A program made the translations under genes and the position numbers. Positions 26,231 through 35,009 of a stretch of 35,740 bases of DNA are shown piece after piece. The notes under the pieces were generated by a model. It was not told where the DNA came from and ran no database searches. It worked only from the letters and a program-made list of their open reading frames with translations. The DNA is from Acidobacteria bacterium RIFCSPLOWO2_12_FULL_67_14b (GTDB lineage Bacteria; Acidobacteriota; Vicinamibacteria; Vicinamibacterales; UBA2999). Numbering within the stretch: the stretch's first letter is position 1; every line of letters begins with the position of its first letter. The DNA lies in assembly GCA_001768615.1 (NCBI GenBank), contig MELE01000131.1:1-35740 (forward strand), given 5' to 3'.

Positions 26231-27358
26231 ATGCCTTACCGTGCTCCTGGTGCGCCCAAGGGTCAGAAGTCGTTTCTCAAAGGCAAACCCATCCGCTACT
26301 ACCGTCCCAAGGGCAGTGCGGCCATTCGCGCGCTGATCGACGACGGCTTCCAGGCGTTCAACGCCGCGCGGCTCGGCGAAGCGTGCCGCATCTTCGGCGA
26401 CAAGATGCTCGCCAAGCCGCACGACACGACGATCGCCCTGACGATTGCCGGTGCCATGACGCCGGCCGGGCTGGGCGGCTGCGTGATCGAGCTGATGAAA
26501 CGCGGCCTGGTCGACTTCATCATCAGCACGGGCGCGAACCTCTATCACGACCTGCATTACGCGCTGAACTTCACGCTGCGCCGCGGATCGCCGTTCGTGG
26601 ACGATCGCGTGCTCTACCACGAGGGCGTCATCCGGATCTACGACGTGCTGTTCCCGGCGCAGGTCCTGCTCGACACCGACACCTTCATCCGCGAGTTTCT
26701 CGAGGCGAGCGGCATGGAAGGGCCGGTCTCGTCGGCGGAGCTGCACGAGGCGCTCGGCCTGCACCTGCTGAAGGTGCGGCAGGGCTGCGCCGAGTATTCG
26801 CTGGTGGCGTCGGCCGCCAAGTACGGCGTCCCGATCTACACCTCGTCGCCGGGCGACAGCTCCATCGGCATGAACCTCGCCTATCACGAGCTGATCAACC
26901 ACAGCACGCTGCTGGTCGATCCGAACCTGGACGTCAACGAGGTGTGCGCGATCATCCGCGCCGCCGACAAGAACGGTTGCGTCATCCTCGGCGGCGGCTC
27001 GCCGAAGAACTTCTACCTGCAGGGGCAGCCGACCCTGTGGGAGGTCTACGGCATCGCCAAGGGCGGCAACGACTACTTCATCCAGATCACGACCGACTCC
27101 GTCGTGTGGGGCGGGCTGTCGGGCGCCACGCCCGCCGAGGCGGTCAGCTGGGGCAAGGTGAACCCGAGCGTCCTGCCCGACACCGCCGTGGCCTACTGCG
27201 ACTCGACGATCGCTTTCCCGCTGTTCTGCGAATACGCCGTTGGCCACAAGAACGGCCGCCGGCCGCGCAAGGCGCTGCTCCGCCGCCGCCGCGAACTGGT
27301 GGCCGAGCTCGAACGGCACGCCAGGAAGCAACTGAAGAATCTCAGACCCAAGATCTGA
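26231..27358 (+). CDS. Deoxyhypusine-synthase-like enzyme
   Basis: A 375-residue homologue of deoxyhypusine synthase, the NAD-dependent enzyme that moves an aminobutyl group from spermidine. The active-site lysine is conserved as Lys309 in EAVSWGKVNPS. Other family landmarks are TLTIAGAMTPAGLGG-like and FIISTGANLYHDLHY near the N-terminus, VPIYTSSPGDSSIGMN and CVILGGGSPKNF. Bacteria lack eIF5A, so the substrate must differ; bacterial relatives are generally linked to polyamine synthesis such as homospermidine. The N-terminus carries a basic stretch (KGQKSFLKGKPIRYYRPKG). The last codons and the stop lie at the start of an AGATCTG heptamer array. It may head an operon with the PIN-like, ROK-like and nagA genes. 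Confidence 0.88.
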   Translation: MPYRAPGAPKGQKSFLKGKPIRYYRPKGSAAIRALIDDGFQAFNAARLGEACRIFGDKMLAKPHDTTIALTIAGAMTPAGLGGCVIELMKRGLVDFIISTGANLYHDLHYALNFTLRRGSPFVDDRVLYHEGVIRIYDVLFPAQVLLDTDTFIREFLEASGMEGPVSSAELHEALGLHLLKVRQGCAEYSLVASAAKYGVPIYTSSPGDSSIGMNLAYHELINHSTLLVDPNLDVNEVCAIIRAADKNGCVILGGGSPKNFYLQGQPTLWEVYGIAKGGNDYFIQITTDSVVWGGLSGATPAEAVSWGKVNPSVLPDTAVAYCDSTIAFPLFCEYAVGHKNGRRPRKALLRRRRELVAELERHARKQLKNLRPKI

Positions 27359-29963: not shown

Positions 29964-30908
29964 ATGAGGCTCCCGTTCCATCGACCCGCGCTCTCGGCCG
30001 GCGCCCTGCTCATCGCATCGACGTTGCTCGGCGGCTGCGAGGTCAACCTCAACACCGAGGGCCTGTCGTCGCGCGACACCCGGACGTTCAAGCTGACGGG
30101 CCAGGCCGAGGTCGTGCTCGACACCTTCGACGGCGCCATCGAGGTCCACTCGTGGGACCGCAACGAGGTCGAGGTCGAAATCGAGAAGCGGGCGATGGAG
30201 CAGCCGCTGATCGACGAGATCAAGGTGGCGGCGGAGCAGCAGGGCAACCGCATCGTCGTGCGCGTGACGGGCCCGAGCCGCACCGAGTTCCGCGGCGTCA
30301 CCATCGGCATGCACATCTCGCCGACCGCGCGCCTGCGCGTCGCGGTGCCGCGGGCCACCAACCTCAACGCCAGGAGCGGCGACGGTTCGATTCGCGCCGA
30401 AGCGCTCGACGGCAGGATCGTCCTGACCACCGTCGACGGCAGCGTCACGGCCGTCCGGCTCTCGGGCGACATCCAGATCCGCACCGGCGACGGCTCGATC
30501 CGTCTCGATGACGTGAGCGGCAAGCTGGATCTCGAAACCGACGACGGCAGCATCGGGATAGAGGCGCGGCCGACGGCGCTGCATGCCAAGACCGGAGACG
30601 GCACGATCCGCGCGACGATCGACGCCGACACCGTCATGTCGGACAACTGGGACCTGACCACCGGCGACGGCAGCGTCGTGCTGACCCTGCCGGCGTCCTT
30701 CAACGCCGAGCTCGACGCCGAGACCAGCGACGGCGTGGTGCGCGCCACGCATCCGCAGTTACGGGACGTCGCCGGCGACGACCGGCGGCGGGGCGAAGAC
30801 GGGGACGATCGGCGCGAGCGCCGGCGCAGCCTGCGGACCCGCATGGGCGAGGGCGGCAAGCTGCTGCGCGTGCGGACCGGCGACGGCACCATCCGCATCG
30901 AGCATTGA
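29964..30908 (+). CDS. DUF4097-family beta-helix lipoprotein
   Basis: A 314-residue envelope protein. The N-terminal signal ends in a lipobox (STLLGGCEVNL), so it is probably a lipid-anchored protein. Residues 45-290 are a repetitive right-handed beta-helix typical of DUF4097 (putative adhesin) proteins. GDGSI-type motifs recur (SGDGSIRAE, VDGSVTAV, TGDGSIRLD, DDGSIGIE, TGDGTIRAT, TGDGSVVLT and TGDGTIRIE). A charged Arg/Asp loop (DDRRRGEDGDDRRERRR) interrupts the last turns. The ATG 29964 has GAGG upstream. It begins 37 bp after nagA and may share its transcript. The function is unknown beyond a surface or periplasmic location. Confidence 0.85.
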   Translation: MRLPFHRPALSAGALLIASTLLGGCEVNLNTEGLSSRDTRTFKLTGQAEVVLDTFDGAIEVHSWDRNEVEVEIEKRAMEQPLIDEIKVAAEQQGNRIVVRVTGPSRTEFRGVTIGMHISPTARLRVAVPRATNLNARSGDGSIRAEALDGRIVLTTVDGSVTAVRLSGDIQIRTGDGSIRLDDVSGKLDLETDDGSIGIEARPTALHAKTGDGTIRATIDADTVMSDNWDLTTGDGSVVLTLPASFNAELDAETSDGVVRATHPQLRDVAGDDRRRGEDGDDRRERRRSLRTRMGEGGKLLRVRTGDGTIRIEH

Positions 30909-30917
30909 GGCAGGCTC

Positions 30918-30947
30918 TTGACACCTGGCTTTGGTGCGTGGGATAAG
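30918..30947 (+). promoter_or_regulatory. Promoter of the siroheme/sulfite-reductase operon
   Basis: A perfect TTGACA (30918-30923) is followed after 18 bp by GATAAG (30942-30947). The start of transcription is expected near 30954, only a few bases before the leader-peptide ATG at 30957. Confidence 0.65.
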
Positions 30948-30956
30948 AGTCTTCTG

Positions 30957-31031
30957 ATGTTCGCCATGTGCACCTGCGCGTGTTGTTGTCTCGGGGCCCA
31001 GCCTCCGAGCGCCGCGCTCTGTACATGTTGA
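30957..31031 (+). CDS. Cysteine-rich leader peptide of an attenuator
   Basis: A 24-residue ORF, too short for ordinary gene calling, beginning MFAMCTCACCCL and ending LCTC before TGA (31029-31031). Seven of 24 residues are Cys, with three consecutive TGT codons at 30981-30989. It starts about 3 nt after the predicted transcription start, so it is nearly leaderless; a second ATG at 30966 is possible. It lies immediately upstream of competing hairpins, a strong terminator and the operon that makes cysteine's sulfide precursor. Known amino-acid attenuators use the same logic, with ribosome stalling when charged tRNA is scarce. Poly-Cys leader ORFs have been reported upstream of sulfur genes in mycobacteria. 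Here it is inferred from sequence only. Confidence 0.75.
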   Translation: MFAMCTCACCCLGAQPPSAALCTC

Positions 31032-31084
31032 TCGTGCCAGGCTAGCTTTCACACCAGCGGCACCACCAAACAAGTTTCAGGACC
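30990..31084 (+). promoter_or_regulatory. Attenuator: alternative hairpins after the Cys codons
   Basis: CTCGGGG (30990-30996) can pair with CCTCCGAG (31002-31009) through a 7-bp stem starting right after the Cys triplet. Alternatively GCCTCCGAG (31001-31009) can pair with CCCGGAAGGC (31088-31097), the left arm of the terminator, with one bulge. A ribosome stalled on the Cys codons would mask 30990-31000 and favour the second fold, preventing termination. GTGCC (31034-31038) and GGCAC (31059-31063) form a further small stem. Confidence 0.55.
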
Positions 31085-31125
31085 AGGCCCGGAAGGCTTT
31101 CAGCTTTCCGGGCCTTTTTGTTTTT
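31085..31125 (+). terminator. Rho-independent terminator in the operon leader
   Basis: AGGCCCGGAAGGC (31085-31097) and GCTTTCCGGGCCT (31103-31115) form a 13-bp stem, including one G-U pair, around the loop TTTCA. The T-rich tract TTTTTGTTTTT follows. It ends 26 bp before ATG 31152, so it must be bypassed to express the operon. Confidence 0.88.
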
Positions 31126-31151
31126 GTCGATGCGTCTTTGGGGAAATTGAA

Positions 31152-32045
31152 ATGGCGATACCACCGTCCGTTGAACCGTTCGTCGAGCCGGAAGCCGATC
31201 GGCAGGATGCGCCGTGGTGGCTCGACCGGCTGATGAGCGTACCGCTCGCGCCGCCCGCGACGGTCCTTCTGCTGGGCCTCATCCTATGGGAAGACGTGTC
31301 CCGCAAAGGGCCCTGGCCCGGATGGCCTGGTCCGCTCGAGCTCAGCACCTCGCCGCTCTCGCTGAACGCCGGGTGGCTGCTGGGTGGAATCGCGATCGCG
31401 CTTGCCGCCGGCGTGATCCTTGGCCGGAGCGCGACCAAGCGCGCTTCGCTGCCGGCCGATGCGGGCCTGCCGCGACTGCCCGTGTTCCTGCGGTTCGACG
31501 GCCGTCGCGTGGTCGTGGTGGGCGCGGGTCCGGTTGCGGCGTCGAAGGTCCCCGCGCTGCTCGCAGCGGGGGCTCAAGTCACTGTGGTGGCGCCCGAGAT
31601 CTCCTCTGCGATCGATCGATCCGGAGTTCGGGTCGTCCAGCGCGAGTTCGAGGCCGCCGATCTCGACGGCGCGTGGTTCGCCACCGCGGCGGCCACGCCT
31701 GCCGTGAACCGCCAGGTCTGTGATGCGGCGGAGCCGCGCGGCATCTTCGTGAACGCGGTCGACGATCCGCCGAATGCTACCGCGTACCTTGGCGGCACGG
31801 TATCCCGCGGCGGCGTCACGGTGGCCTTCTCGACCGCGGGCCAGGCGCCGGCGCTGGCGGGCCTGCTGCGCGAGGCCTTCGACGAGCTGATGCCCGCCGA
31901 CGTGGCGACGTGGGCGGAGCGGGCGCACGAGCTCAGCCGCCACCAGCGGGCGTCGGGTGTTGCGGTCCACGCACGCCGGCCGCAATTGCTCGACGCATTG
32001 AACCGGTTGTACGACCGGCGCGATCGAGCCGGTGCGCCGCGATGA
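31152..32045 (+). CDS. Membrane-anchored precorrin-2 dehydrogenase (siroheme synthase, CysG-N/Met8 type)
   Basis: NAD-dependent oxidation of precorrin-2 to sirohydrochlorin, and possibly iron insertion, for siroheme. The 297 residues carry an unusual N-terminal part of about 105 residues with two transmembrane helices (VPLAPPATVLLLGLILW and AGWLLGGIAIALAAGVILG). The soluble domain follows: VVVVGAGPVAASKVPALLAAGA (Rossmann loop), WFATAAATPAVNRQVCDAA, GIFVNAVDDPPNA and VAFSTAGQAPALAGLLREAFDELMP, all matching CysG's first domain. The usual enzyme is soluble, so the anchor is odd; the frame from ATG 31152 is continuous. The gene is first after the attenuator and overlaps the methyltransferase by 4 bp (ATGA). 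Confidence 0.88.
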   Translation: MAIPPSVEPFVEPEADRQDAPWWLDRLMSVPLAPPATVLLLGLILWEDVSRKGPWPGWPGPLELSTSPLSLNAGWLLGGIAIALAAGVILGRSATKRASLPADAGLPRLPVFLRFDGRRVVVVGAGPVAASKVPALLAAGAQVTVVAPEISSAIDRSGVRVVQREFEAADLDGAWFATAAATPAVNRQVCDAAEPRGIFVNAVDDPPNATAYLGGTVSRGGVTVAFSTAGQAPALAGLLREAFDELMPADVATWAERAHELSRHQRASGVAVHARRPQLLDALNRLYDRRDRAGAPR

Positions 32046-32815
32046 CCACTCGGAACGCCGGGTTCGTGTCGCTCGTCGGCGCCGGGCCCGGGCACCCGGA
32101 ACACCTGACGCAGAAGGCGGTCCGGCGCCTGGGCGAAGCCGATCTCGTGCTGCACGATGCGCTCGTGTCCGACGGCGTCCTCGCCTTTGCGGCCGGTGCG
32201 GAGTTCCTGTGCGTCGGCAAACGCGCGGGGCGCCCGCAGACGCCGCAGGAGACGATCGAGCGGCTGCTGATCGACGCGGCGCGCCGGGGCCGGCGAGTGG
32301 TGCGCCTCAAGGGCGGCGACCCATTTGTGTTCGGACGGGGCGGAGAAGAAGCGCTGGCCCTGAGCGCTGCGGGTATTCCCTTCGAGGTCGTTCCAGGATT
32401 GACGACGGCGGTGGCGGCCCCGGCACTTGCGGGCATTCCGGTCACGCATCGCGGCACGTCATCGGGATTTGTCGTGATCACCGCCGCGGACGAAGGCGCG
32501 TGCGACGCCACGATCGAGGCGCTGCCGCCGGGCCTGCTGACGCTCGTGGCGATGATGTCGGTGCAGTCGGCCGGCCGGTTGGTGGGTTGCCTGCTGGCGC
32601 GCGGCTGGCCGGCCGGCACGCCTGCCGCGCTGGTGATTGGCGCGGCGACGCCACGCCTGTGGACGTGGAGGGGCCGGCTCGCCGACCTGTCACGCGTGGT
32701 CATTCCGGACCACAGTGCCGATGCCCCGGGAACGATCGTGATCGGCGAGGTCGCGGCCCTGCCCATCGACCTCGACGAAGAGGGCGCGTCCTCGGCAGCG
32801 GCGGTCCCTTCATGA
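32042..32815 (+). CDS. cobA: Uroporphyrinogen-III C-methyltransferase
   Basis: SAM-dependent double methylation of uroporphyrinogen III to precorrin-2, feeding the preceding gene's enzyme. The 257 residues show VSLVGAGPGHPEHLT (SAM site), VLHDALVSDGVL, VVRLKGGDPFVFGRGGEEA (family signature), the VPGLTTAVAAPALAGIPVTHRG loop in parts, and MMSVQSA followed by the C-terminal domain. The length is normal for the single-domain SUMT. It overlaps its neighbours on both sides by 4 bp (ATGA), so expression is translationally coupled within the attenuated operon. Splitting SUMT and dehydrogenase into two genes is common outside enterobacteria. The alternative symbol sumT would be equally suitable. Confidence 0.95.
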   Translation: MTTRNAGFVSLVGAGPGHPEHLTQKAVRRLGEADLVLHDALVSDGVLAFAAGAEFLCVGKRAGRPQTPQETIERLLIDAARRGRRVVRLKGGDPFVFGRGGEEALALSAAGIPFEVVPGLTTAVAAPALAGIPVTHRGTSSGFVVITAADEGACDATIEALPPGLLTLVAMMSVQSAGRLVGCLLARGWPAGTPAALVIGAATPRLWTWRGRLADLSRVVIPDHSADAPGTIVIGEVAALPIDLDEEGASSAAAVPS

Positions 32816-33006
32816 GCCGCACGATTCGCGTCGGCGCGCGGGGCAGCCGCCTGTCGCGGTGGCAGGTCGGCGTCGCGATCGGCGCGCTCGAACGCCGCGG
32901 CATCGCGGCCGAGCGCCTGCTGCTGTCATCGTACTTTGCCGCCGCCAGGCGCCTGGCGGACGTCCACGACATGACCCTGCCAGGAGCCCACCATGGCCGC
33001 CCATGA
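32812..33006 (+). pseudogene. hemC: Remnant of hydroxymethylbilane synthase (hemC 5' end)
   Basis: A 64-codon frame starting with an ATGA overlap to the methyltransferase. The first 33 residues (IRVGARGSRLSRWQVGVAIGALERRG) match the N-terminal strand and helix of HemC (IRIGTRGS-LALWQ). After that the similarity stops abruptly, and the remainder (LLLSSYFAAARRLADVHD) is unrelated. About 250 residues of the enzyme are absent. The frame ends inside the start of the sulfite reductase gene. It looks like a hemC that lost its body by deletion, keeping the coupled start. A functional copy must exist elsewhere. It could also persist as a translated spacer that couples the two neighbours. Confidence 0.65.
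32942..32959. repeat. 18-bp perfect palindrome before the siroheme reductase gene
   Basis: CCGCCAGGCGCCTGGCGG is a perfect palindrome located 33 bp before ATG 32993 and just 3' of the conserved part of the hemC remnant. It could be the scar of the deletion or a protein-binding site. Confidence 0.5.
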
Positions 33007-34825
33007 TTCTGCGAAGACCCTCGGCCGCGCGCGGCTGTCGTTCGCGCGCGAAGCCGACATCGACGAGTTCGCGGACATGCTCGGGCGCTTCGAGCGCGGC
33101 GAGATCACGCCCGACCAGTGGCGTGTCTTCCGGCTCGTGCGCGGCACCTACGGCCAGCGGCAGGTCGACGATGCGCAGATGATTCGCGTGAAGATCCCGC
33201 AGGGCGTGCTGACGGTGGAGCAGTTGCACGCGCTGGCGGACGTCGCCGAGCGGTACTCACGCGGCTTCGGCCACATCACCACGCGCCAGAACGTCCAGTT
33301 CCATTTCGTGAAGCTGCACGACGCCGAGCCCGCGATGCGCCGGCTCGCGGACGCGGGTCTGACCACGCGGGAGGCGTGCGGCAACTCCGTGCGCAACATC
33401 ACCGCGTGCCAGTTCGCCGGCGTCGCCGCCGACGAGCCGTTCGACGTGACGCCGTACGCCGAGGCGCTGACACGGTTCCTGCTGCGGCACCCGCTGAGCT
33501 CGTCGCTGCCCCGCAAGTTCAAGATCGCCTTCGAAGGGTGCGGGCGCGATCACATCAAGCTCACGATCAACGACATTGGCTGGCTCGCCCGGGTCGTCGA
33601 TGGCCGGCGCGGGTTCCGCGTCTACATCGGCGGCGGCACCGCGACCATGACCACCGCGGCGGCGGTGCTGTTCGACTTCCTGCCCGTCGAGGACATGCTG
33701 CGCGTCGCCGAAGCGGTGATTCGCCTGTTCCACGAGCGCGGCGATTACCAGCACAAGCAGCGCAACCGCATGAAGTTCCTGATCAAGGCGCTGGGTTGGG
33801 AGGCGTGGCGCGCGGCATTCGACGTGGCCCTGGCCCAGGTCCGTGCCGACGGCGGCCGCGACCTCGTGTTCGACGTGGCCCCGGCTGCGGCGGAGGCCGC
33901 GCCGGCGTGGCCTCGTGCGGCGGCGCCGGCGATCGGCGACATCGCACGACGGGTCGAAGCTGCCACGCTGCGCGGTCCCGGCATTGTCCCGGGGGGCGGT
34001 CCCGCGCCCGCCGGCGCCGACGGCTTCGCGCCCTGGGTGCGGACCAACGTGCGGCCGCAGAAACAGCTCGACTTCGTGTCGGTCGTTGTCACGGTACCGC
34101 TGGGCGACCTCAGCGGCGCGCAGTACCGCATTCTCGGCGACCTGGCGAATGCCTACGGCGACGGGACGGTCCGCGTCACGGCGGTGCAGGACCTGGTGTT
34201 TCGCTGGGTGCGGCGTGCCGACCTGCTGGAGTTGTACCGGCGGCTGCAGGCGGCGGGGCTAGGTCTTCCGGATGCCGACTCCATTGCGGATGTGACCAGT
34301 TGCCCGGGCGCCGAGTCGTGCAAGCTCGCGGTCACGCAGTCACGCGGCCTCGGCCAGGCGCTCGAGCGGCACCTGCGCGCAACGCCGGACCTGATCGAGC
34401 TCGCGCGTGAGCTCGACATCAAGATCAGCGGCTGCCCGAACGGCTGCGGCCAGCACCACGTGGCGACCATCGGCTTCCAGGGCAGCCTGCGCAAGGTCGA
34501 TGGCAAGGCGGTGCCGCAGTACTTCATCCAGGTTGGCGGCGGCATCGACGCGGCGCGCACCACCTTCGGCCGGCTCGCCGCCAAGGTGCCGGCTCGCCGC
34601 GCCGCCGCCGCCCTCGAACGCCTGGTGCGGTTGTATGCGGATGAAAAACAGGGTGGTGAAACGCCGGTCGCGTTCTTCCGCCGCCTGGAGGTATCGAAGG
34701 TGAAAGCGCTGCTACACGATCTGGAAACGTTGACCGCCGACACCGCGAGCGACGCTGACTACATCGATCTTGCCGAGACCACGACGTTCCGGCCCAAGAC
34801 CACCGACGGTGAGTGTGCGACCTAG
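32993..34825 (+). CDS. Siroheme-dependent sulfite (or nitrite) reductase
   Basis: Six-electron reductase using a coupled siroheme and [4Fe-4S] cluster, probably with ferredoxin as donor since no flavin domain is present. The 610 residues have the duplicated ferredoxin-like half-domains and siroheme domains. Landmarks are GVLTVEQLHALADVAERY, TTRQNVQFHFV, and GNSVRNITACQFAG in the first half. The cluster cysteines are Cys437 and Cys443 in TSCPGAESCKL, and Cys481 and Cys485 in SGCPNGCGQHH. A ribosome site (AGGAG) precedes ATG 32993. The family includes assimilatory sulfite and nitrite reductases that motifs alone cannot separate. The Cys-rich attenuator upstream and absence of nitrate genes favour sulfite. 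A basic, Ala/Pro-rich linker lies around 300-345. Confidence 0.9.
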   Translation: MAAHDSAKTLGRARLSFAREADIDEFADMLGRFERGEITPDQWRVFRLVRGTYGQRQVDDAQMIRVKIPQGVLTVEQLHALADVAERYSRGFGHITTRQNVQFHFVKLHDAEPAMRRLADAGLTTREACGNSVRNITACQFAGVAADEPFDVTPYAEALTRFLLRHPLSSSLPRKFKIAFEGCGRDHIKLTINDIGWLARVVDGRRGFRVYIGGGTATMTTAAAVLFDFLPVEDMLRVAEAVIRLFHERGDYQHKQRNRMKFLIKALGWEAWRAAFDVALAQVRADGGRDLVFDVAPAAAEAAPAWPRAAAPAIGDIARRVEAATLRGPGIVPGGGPAPAGADGFAPWVRTNVRPQKQLDFVSVVVTVPLGDLSGAQYRILGDLANAYGDGTVRVTAVQDLVFRWVRRADLLELYRRLQAAGLGLPDADSIADVTSCPGAESCKLAVTQSRGLGQALERHLRATPDLIELARELDIKISGCPNGCGQHHVATIGFQGSLRKVDGKAVPQYFIQVGGGIDAARTTFGRLAAKVPARRAAAALERLVRLYADEKQGGETPVAFFRRLEVSKVKALLHDLETLTADTASDADYIDLAETTTFRPKTTDGECAT

Positions 34826-35009
34826 GGCGTCGATCACGGCCTTCCTGATTCCGGCGGTCGCGCTGATCCTCGGCATCGCCGTGCGCCACGAGCGCGTGTC
34901 GACGGTGTCCCTGGCGGGCGCGGCGATTTGCCTGTTGGGCGCCGCGATCGTCCGCAACCCGCAGATGCTGCGGGTGGTGCCGCGTTACCTCGGCGAGCGA
35001 TTGGCGTAG
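34812..35009 (+). pseudogene. C-terminal remnant of an EamA/DMT-type transporter
   Basis: A frame of about 65 codons from GTG 34812 matches only the last two transmembrane helices of an EamA-family transporter (ITAFLIPAVALILGIAVRHE, then VSTVSLAGAAICLLGAAIV). A full gene would have ten helices. It overlaps the end of the reductase gene in another frame and converges on queC with a 25-bp overlap. It is best read as the 3' stump of a gene whose body was deleted or replaced. Confidence 0.55.

Follow-up and report, generated by a model that had tools for sequence, protein, structure and literature searches.

A probable cysteine-responsive attenuator before siroheme genes in an Acidobacteriota genome, and related leaders in its class

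Why should a short, cysteine-rich open reading frame (ORF) lie between a promoter-like sequence and a terminator hairpin, directly ahead of genes for siroheme synthesis? The arrangement occupies 30918-31152 of the window, by which we mean the whole stretch of 35,740 nucleotides analysed here, and follows a DUF4097 gene that ends at 30908. In attenuators of the trp/his type, a leader ORF carries codons for the end product, the leader RNA can form 1:2, 2:3 and 3:4 pairings, and an intrinsic terminator precedes the regulated genes. An initial annotation of this DNA had read the locus in this way, and the leaders of relatives, a switch reproduced in silico and covariation between leaders all support that reading. 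We think it very probable that the locus is a ribosome-mediated transcription attenuator of the trp/his type that senses cysteinyl-tRNA.

Table 1. Features of the leader and of the genes behind it (positions in the window).
Feature	Position	Strand	Evidence or remark
-35 element TTGACA	30918..30923	+	read from sequence
-10 element GATAAG	30942..30947	+	read from sequence; 18-nt spacer to -35
Near-leaderless leader ORF, MFAMCTCACCCLGAQPPSAALCTC*	30957..31031	+	24 codons, 7 Cys
1:2 hairpin, Cys codons in left arm	30965..31027	+	folding; pairing map; arm swaps
Three consecutive TGT Cys codons (9-11), predicted stall site	30981..30989	+	ribosome-mask scan
Apical 7-bp hairpin, 30990-30996 / 31003-31009	30990..31009	+	directly after Cys triplet
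Region 2, shared by 1:2 (right arm) and the antiterminator (left arm)	31001..31009	+	
Intrinsic terminator 3:4	31085..31115	+	14 pairs by terminator tool; T-run to 31125
Region 3, within terminator left arm	31088-31097	+	can pair with 31001-31009
Siroheme synthase N-terminal-domain protein (CysG type, precorrin-2 dehydrogenase), with N-terminal extension	31152..32045	+	TIGR01470 above cut-off, PF13241
Uroporphyrinogen-III C-methyltransferase	32042..32815	+	TIGR01469, NF004790 above cut-off
Siroheme 4Fe-4S reductase (NirA/CysI type)	32993..34825	+	PF01077, PF03460; NirA best, below cut-off

Both hexamers of the promoter proposed in that annotation were found where it had placed them, and the near-leaderless ORF does contain the seven Cys codons, three of them in a row, that had been ascribed to it. 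Transcription is predicted to start 1-3 nt before the ORF; a consensus promoter scanner returned no promoter in 30700-31300, because GATAAG breaks the scanner's rule for the last T. The 7-bp hairpin described after the Cys triplet is present, but in the ribosome-free fold it is the apical part of a longer hairpin in which the Cys codons are included, codons 22 and 24 (the second Cys pair) falling within the right arm. Similarly, the terminator was correctly positioned, T-run included, but has one pair more than the 13 first counted; it ends 36 bp before the start of cysG, and terminators occupy the matching position in the leaders of relatives. The segment 30948-31130 has a fold z of -3.68. 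Among 2000 dinucleotide shuffles of 30908-31152, a Cys-rich ORF appeared in 45 and a terminator in 33, and both in range in none; the combination of ORF and terminator in the window is not chance. The leader is present once in its own genome, covariance models gave no Rfam family at the gathering score in the window, and a DNA similarity search of plasmids gave no match.

Of the operon named in the annotation, the siroheme genes stand as described, but the sulfite reductase is likely from context, the best model (NirA) scoring below its cut-off; we regard the product as probably an assimilatory sulfite reductase. The extension of the CysG-domain protein comprises ∼105 residues (31152-31470) and was also aligned in two other loci (L003 and L004); it does not align in the remaining CysG matches of the family search, which start at residue 91 or later. 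Between the methyltransferase and the reductase, a short ORF (32812-33003) resembles by eye the N-terminus of HemC, with no Pfam match at 0.01; a fragment at 34815-35006 resembles the C-terminal end of an EamA transporter, just under the Pfam cut-off; and 26231-27355 encodes a deoxyhypusine-synthase family protein (PF01916), here in a bacterium.

One can envision the following sequence of events. Transcription would begin a few bases ahead of the leader ORF, and with ample cysteinyl-tRNA a ribosome translating the ORF would clear the Cys codons and reach the stop, where region 2 would be held in the 1:2 hairpin or lie under the ribosome; region 2 being unavailable, the 3:4 terminator would form and RNA polymerase would halt. 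With scarce cysteinyl-tRNA, the ribosome would instead pause at codons 9-11 and occupy the left arm of 1:2, and the freed region 2 (31001-31009) could take the left arm of the terminator (31088-31097). This antiterminator would permit read-through to the siroheme and reductase genes, the predicted direction of the response thus being towards more sulfide for cysteine.

The alternative pairing, put forward earlier as possible, is indeed possible in the sequence and is favoured in silico at Cys codons 9-11. In a scan of ribosome positions, the transcript was cut before the right arm of the terminator is made and the ribosome footprint was masked. P(antiterminator) was 0.80 for an A site on Cys 9 and 0.88 on both Cys 10 and Cys 11, as against 0.02 in the ribosome-free transcript and 0.00 with the ribosome at the stop. 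Leu 12, which directly follows the Cys run, gave 0.72 and the start codon 0.44; Cys 5, 7, 22 and 24 stayed at 0.08 or below. When the entire 5' side was masked, Ala 8 (0.67) and Gly 13 (0.41) were additionally raised.

Orthologous leaders provide a further check. A CysG protein search matched 24 of the 43 family genomes, and among the 29 loci compared (window included), nine have a Cys-rich ORF and then a terminator just upstream of cysG, as the annotation had anticipated for orthologous operons. One locus (L008) has a terminator before cysG but four scattered Cys codons, and the remaining loci have no such leader directly before cysG; in many of those without a Cys leader, cysG lies closely behind thrC or cysH (named by eye). 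The leader ORF of the same-genus locus L003 differs from that of the window by two synonymous changes. A contig scan gave 42 named loci, 25 of them titled Acidobacteria, Acidobacteriota or Acidobacteriaceae, the closest named relative being JAUSDY010000078.1 (Acidobacteriota bacterium isolate E14_maxbin.140_sub, a MAG). On the sense strand, 18 of the 42 have a Cys-rich ORF and, no more than 140 nt from it, a terminator; on the antisense strand 0 of the 42 do. Of the 18, 16 are titled Acidobacteria, and the others are Candidatus Sulfopaludibacter (L042) and Planctomycetota (L053). On the Planctomycetota contig the leader precedes a TauE/SafE gene (PF01925), beyond which lie cysH and ATP sulfurylase/APS kinase (by eye) and then cysG.

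In 22 distinct leaders, the distance from the first Cys codon to the terminator is 84-117 nt, and an RNA model was built from these. Within the family, 31 of the 43 genomes yielded full-length matches below 1e-7, 47 in total; at 0.01 the model reached 41 of 43, with many weak matches covering little beyond the terminator. At 1e-5 it matched 38 of 396 phylum genomes, namely, in a kinship-ordered count, 31 of the 46 sampled from the window's class and 7 of 350 others, and absence elsewhere is weak evidence because the model was trained near the window and the filters were strict. Of these seven outside the class, four (G180, G269, G386 and G265) carry Cys leaders, in front of cysH-like, reductase or cysK genes; the other three (G299, G307 and G370) have no Cys ORF. 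Genomes G017, G034 and G035 carry three leaders each. An Rfam search of seven loci placed SAM riboswitches downstream in two that also have Cys leaders (L043:7462-7572 and L037:7290-7426).

From 115 leader candidates, 79 distinct leaders were kept, 21 being duplicates and 15 failing the filter. Because the leaders were chosen for both a Cys ORF and a terminator, these two parts are not evidence in this set, and the training set of the RNA model also shapes the sample. Among the filter failures, L008, L091, L102, L120, L154, L170 and L174 have by eye a short ORF near a terminator, with at least two Cys codons; in L149, L121 and L150 a Cys ORF is present but no terminator was found; L101 is cut by a contig end; and a Cys ORF is absent from four others, as judged by eye for L142 and L157 and by the filter for L148 and L158.

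The near-leaderless start recurs in this set. A hexamer pair was found in 71 of the 79 leaders, with TTGAC in 55 of those 71, and in 62 of the 68 leaders scoring at least 8 the first in-frame start codon falls 6-12 nt past the -10 element, most commonly, as in the window, at 9 nt (32 of 68). Transcription usually starts 6-8 nt after the -10 element; if it does so here, the closeness of the start codon leaves little room for a Shine-Dalgarno site. Codon choice in the leaders is also distinctive: TGT makes up 274 of 432 Cys codons (63%) in leaders, as against 49 of 314 in the downstream ORFs, which are 68% G+C, or 27 of 212 when these are restricted to the 64 of 82 ORFs whose frame is judged right (range 13-16% overall).

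The pairings were not a criterion of the selection. Complementarity between the two arms of the antiterminator exceeded that of shuffles (mean z -1.46 over 79 leaders; single-leader p below 0.05 in 33), the controls being near zero (right arm of the terminator, mean z -0.10; Cys run with the downstream region, 0.02). The antiterminator starts at a median of 11 nt past the last Cys codon, a distance at which it should just escape the footprint of a ribosome paused there; region 2 lies inside the ORF, the stop codon being 21-66 nt before the terminator in the leaders kept. When terminators were swapped between leaders, the antiterminator on average fitted its own better, with z of -10.0 for all 79 and -6.4 for 32 non-redundant leaders (0 of 20000 permutations in each set; controls for the 32, +0.7 and +2.3), and the own terminator ranked among the top 10% of partners in only 14 of the 32. 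The arms of 1:2 likewise fitted their own better than swapped partners (z -5.1). A test for a hairpin situated entirely downstream of the Cys codons was negative (mean z -0.15; below 0.05 in 2 of 79), which directed attention to one that takes in the Cys codons: in a pairing map of the 79 leaders, a recurrent hairpin is centred ∼5-9 nt past the last Cys codon, with the Cys codons in its left arm. Pairing of the pre-terminator spacer with the start region (mean z -0.35) or with the Cys run (-0.05) was weak or absent as a common feature.

As for the compensatory changes that had been suggested as a check, one related, aligned subfamily of 23 has changes on both sides of the pairing for 1:2 and the terminator, but not for the antiterminator. 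There, the apical 1:2 helix is 91% paired with four double-change cells (5 of 500 shuffles reach four), its number of double-change pairs not being above shuffles, and the terminator is 97% paired with six such cells (0 of 500 shuffles). The antiterminator, also 91% paired, has no double change and is not above its shuffles; it is uninformative in this subfamily because it is conserved there.

Extended to the 79 leaders, the scan gave a mean P(antiterminator) of 0.42 without a ribosome, 0.76 for one halted on the last Cys codon and 0.36 for one at the stop. Stalling raised it by more than 0.2 in 36 leaders, lowered it by more than 0.2 in five and changed it less in 38, in several of these because the antiterminator prevails whatever the state of the cut transcript. 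The position profile has its maximum on the last Cys codon, with a mean of 0.71 and a median of 0.94, and P(antiterminator) is higher at Cys codons than at other codons in 72 of the 79 leaders; the drop past the Cys codons is partly by construction, because region 2 (the best duplex) is then under the ribosome.

These results bear on several alternatives. Control could be Rho-dependent or translational rather than through intrinsic termination, a possibility raised for the actinobacterial cys leaders, and the predicted near-leaderless start, like that of the mycobacterial ORFs, might suggest it; however, a T-tailed hairpin is present (in the 79 leaders by selection) and the antiterminators match the left arm of the terminator, so that we hold this explanation to be very improbable. 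We give slightly less credence still to the notion that the terminator merely ends the transcript of the upstream DUF4097 gene, about 180 bp behind which it stands, and that the Cys-rich ORF arose by accident: between that gene and the terminator lie a promoter-like pair and the ORF, the same set of elements stands before sulfur genes elsewhere, no shuffle produced both parts, and the antiterminator covaries between leaders. A metabolite riboswitch or T-box acting without translation would likewise present a structured leader with an intrinsic terminator upstream of biosynthetic genes, and the ribosome-free fold is also strong, but neither the window nor the leaders of seven loci gave an Rfam match at the gathering score, and what recurs is the Cys codons, their distance to region 2 and the complementarity, with no evident aptamer core; we rate its chances as low as those of the DUF4097 explanation. 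Least credible of the four is a function of the Cys-rich peptide itself, perhaps in binding metals or thiols, with the terminator secondary. Peptides of the CxCxCCC kind could bind metals, but the leader peptides vary in length and sequence except for Cys, TGT is preferred, and the distance from Cys codons to region 2 is similar across leaders.

If the leaders are, as we favour, ribosome-mediated attenuators, the genes behind them should indicate what is regulated, and these are largely cysteine and sulfur genes. They include cysD, cysH, an ORF of the cysH-ATP sulfurylase-APS kinase type and cysK; cysG, uroporphyrinogen methyltransferase and a NirA-like reductase; TauE/SafE, a YeiH-like protein and an SsuA-type binding protein (in the single-contig genome G165, the leader of L175 precedes a gene of the SsuA-like cluster); genes resembling homoserine kinase and threonine synthase, from operons in which cysG is also present; and a RimK-like ATP-grasp protein and a TlpA/ResA-like redoxin. 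The YeiH, RimK and ResA model matches are all below the NCBIfam cut-offs, and not every leader's gene is named because some of the ORFs picked are in the wrong frame (e.g., L107, L109, and L110). The ATP-grasp protein, which may make or use a thiol compound, stands behind Cys leaders in L089, L087, L092, L111, L116 and L118, and the redoxin in L093, L096, L097, L115, L120, L151 and L185; in L185, the redoxin is followed, by eye, by an ATP-grasp-like protein and cytochrome c genes. In the window's own genome, CysD was not found, the redoxin homologue has its start at the end of a contig, and the match to the ATP-grasp protein is partial.

Gene controls were drawn from the order. A Cys leader lies within 1.5 kb upstream of cysD in only 6 of 30 loci (the best 30 of 35 matches by CysD score, cysD often not being the first gene), and one of the six is 1.1 kb away, before another gene. 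At hisG (L216-L245), Cys leaders were found in 0 of 30 loci and a His-rich ORF with a terminator upstream in 26 of 30, own genome included; His leaders before cysD numbered 0 of 30. The His leader of the own genome, with the ORF MSFVHHAHWGHHRRSLNGPAGACA, lies at about 2480-2660 in L220 (G000:C27), a TTGACC box standing close before the ORF by eye.

Taken together, these observations incline us, with some reserve, to a class-wide cysteine regulon of Acidobacteriota, in which near-leaderless sensor ORFs would govern several operons at separate places in one genome, every operon having an antiterminator and a terminator matched to one another. Such a regulon would join sulfate activation and reduction, siroheme, cysteine synthase, sulfonate uptake and sulfur exporters; it would place the RimK-like ATP-grasp and TlpA-like redoxin genes in the metabolism of cysteine or thiols; and it would make leaderless starts and rare UGU codons parts of a sensor evolved apart from that of mycobacteria. 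Cys leaders suggest roles for genes otherwise without a pathway (ATP-grasp, redoxin and NirA-like reductase), and raise the question of why poly-Cys sensor ORFs should be near-leaderless in two distant phyla.

Compared with known trp/his attenuators, the window's leader is alike in its end-product codons (7 Cys in 24), its three predicted pairings, its intrinsic terminator before the first gene and its pathway genes (siroheme and a siroheme reductase here; cysD, cysH and cysK elsewhere), and differs in that cysteine is sensed, the ORF is near-leaderless and region 2 lies inside the ORF. The His leaders found here in the same order share the layout of a short ORF rich in the codon and then a terminator; the amino acid and the operon are others. 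Cysteine attenuation as such is known, as PMC1262725, PMC8632094, PMC2965389 and PMC13236596 indicate. The initial annotation's statement on novelty holds for the literature searched: poly-Cys leaders are known in mycobacteria, and among the matches listed in the open-access literature there is no description of a Cys attenuator in Acidobacteriota. The mycobacterial short ORFs (Canestrari et al. 2020, as cited in PMC13236596) are similarly poly-Cys, stand before cysteine and sulfur genes and are, by the title of the 2020 paper, leaderless. For actinobacterial cys leaders, Seliverstov et al. 2005 (PMC1262725) report no conserved terminator hairpins and suggest Rho, whereas the Acidobacteriota leaders have an intrinsic terminator matched to the antiterminator. 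The uORFC-8-2 motif, for which attenuation was proposed, also combines a short ORF with tandem Cys codons and an intrinsic terminator, but is, in the account given in PMC8632094, reported only before cysS in Rhodobacterales; the present leaders are in Acidobacteriota, stand before sulfate assimilation, siroheme and other genes, and often have longer Cys runs. What looks new is thus the combination of a near-leaderless ORF, an intrinsic terminator and many operons in this phylum.
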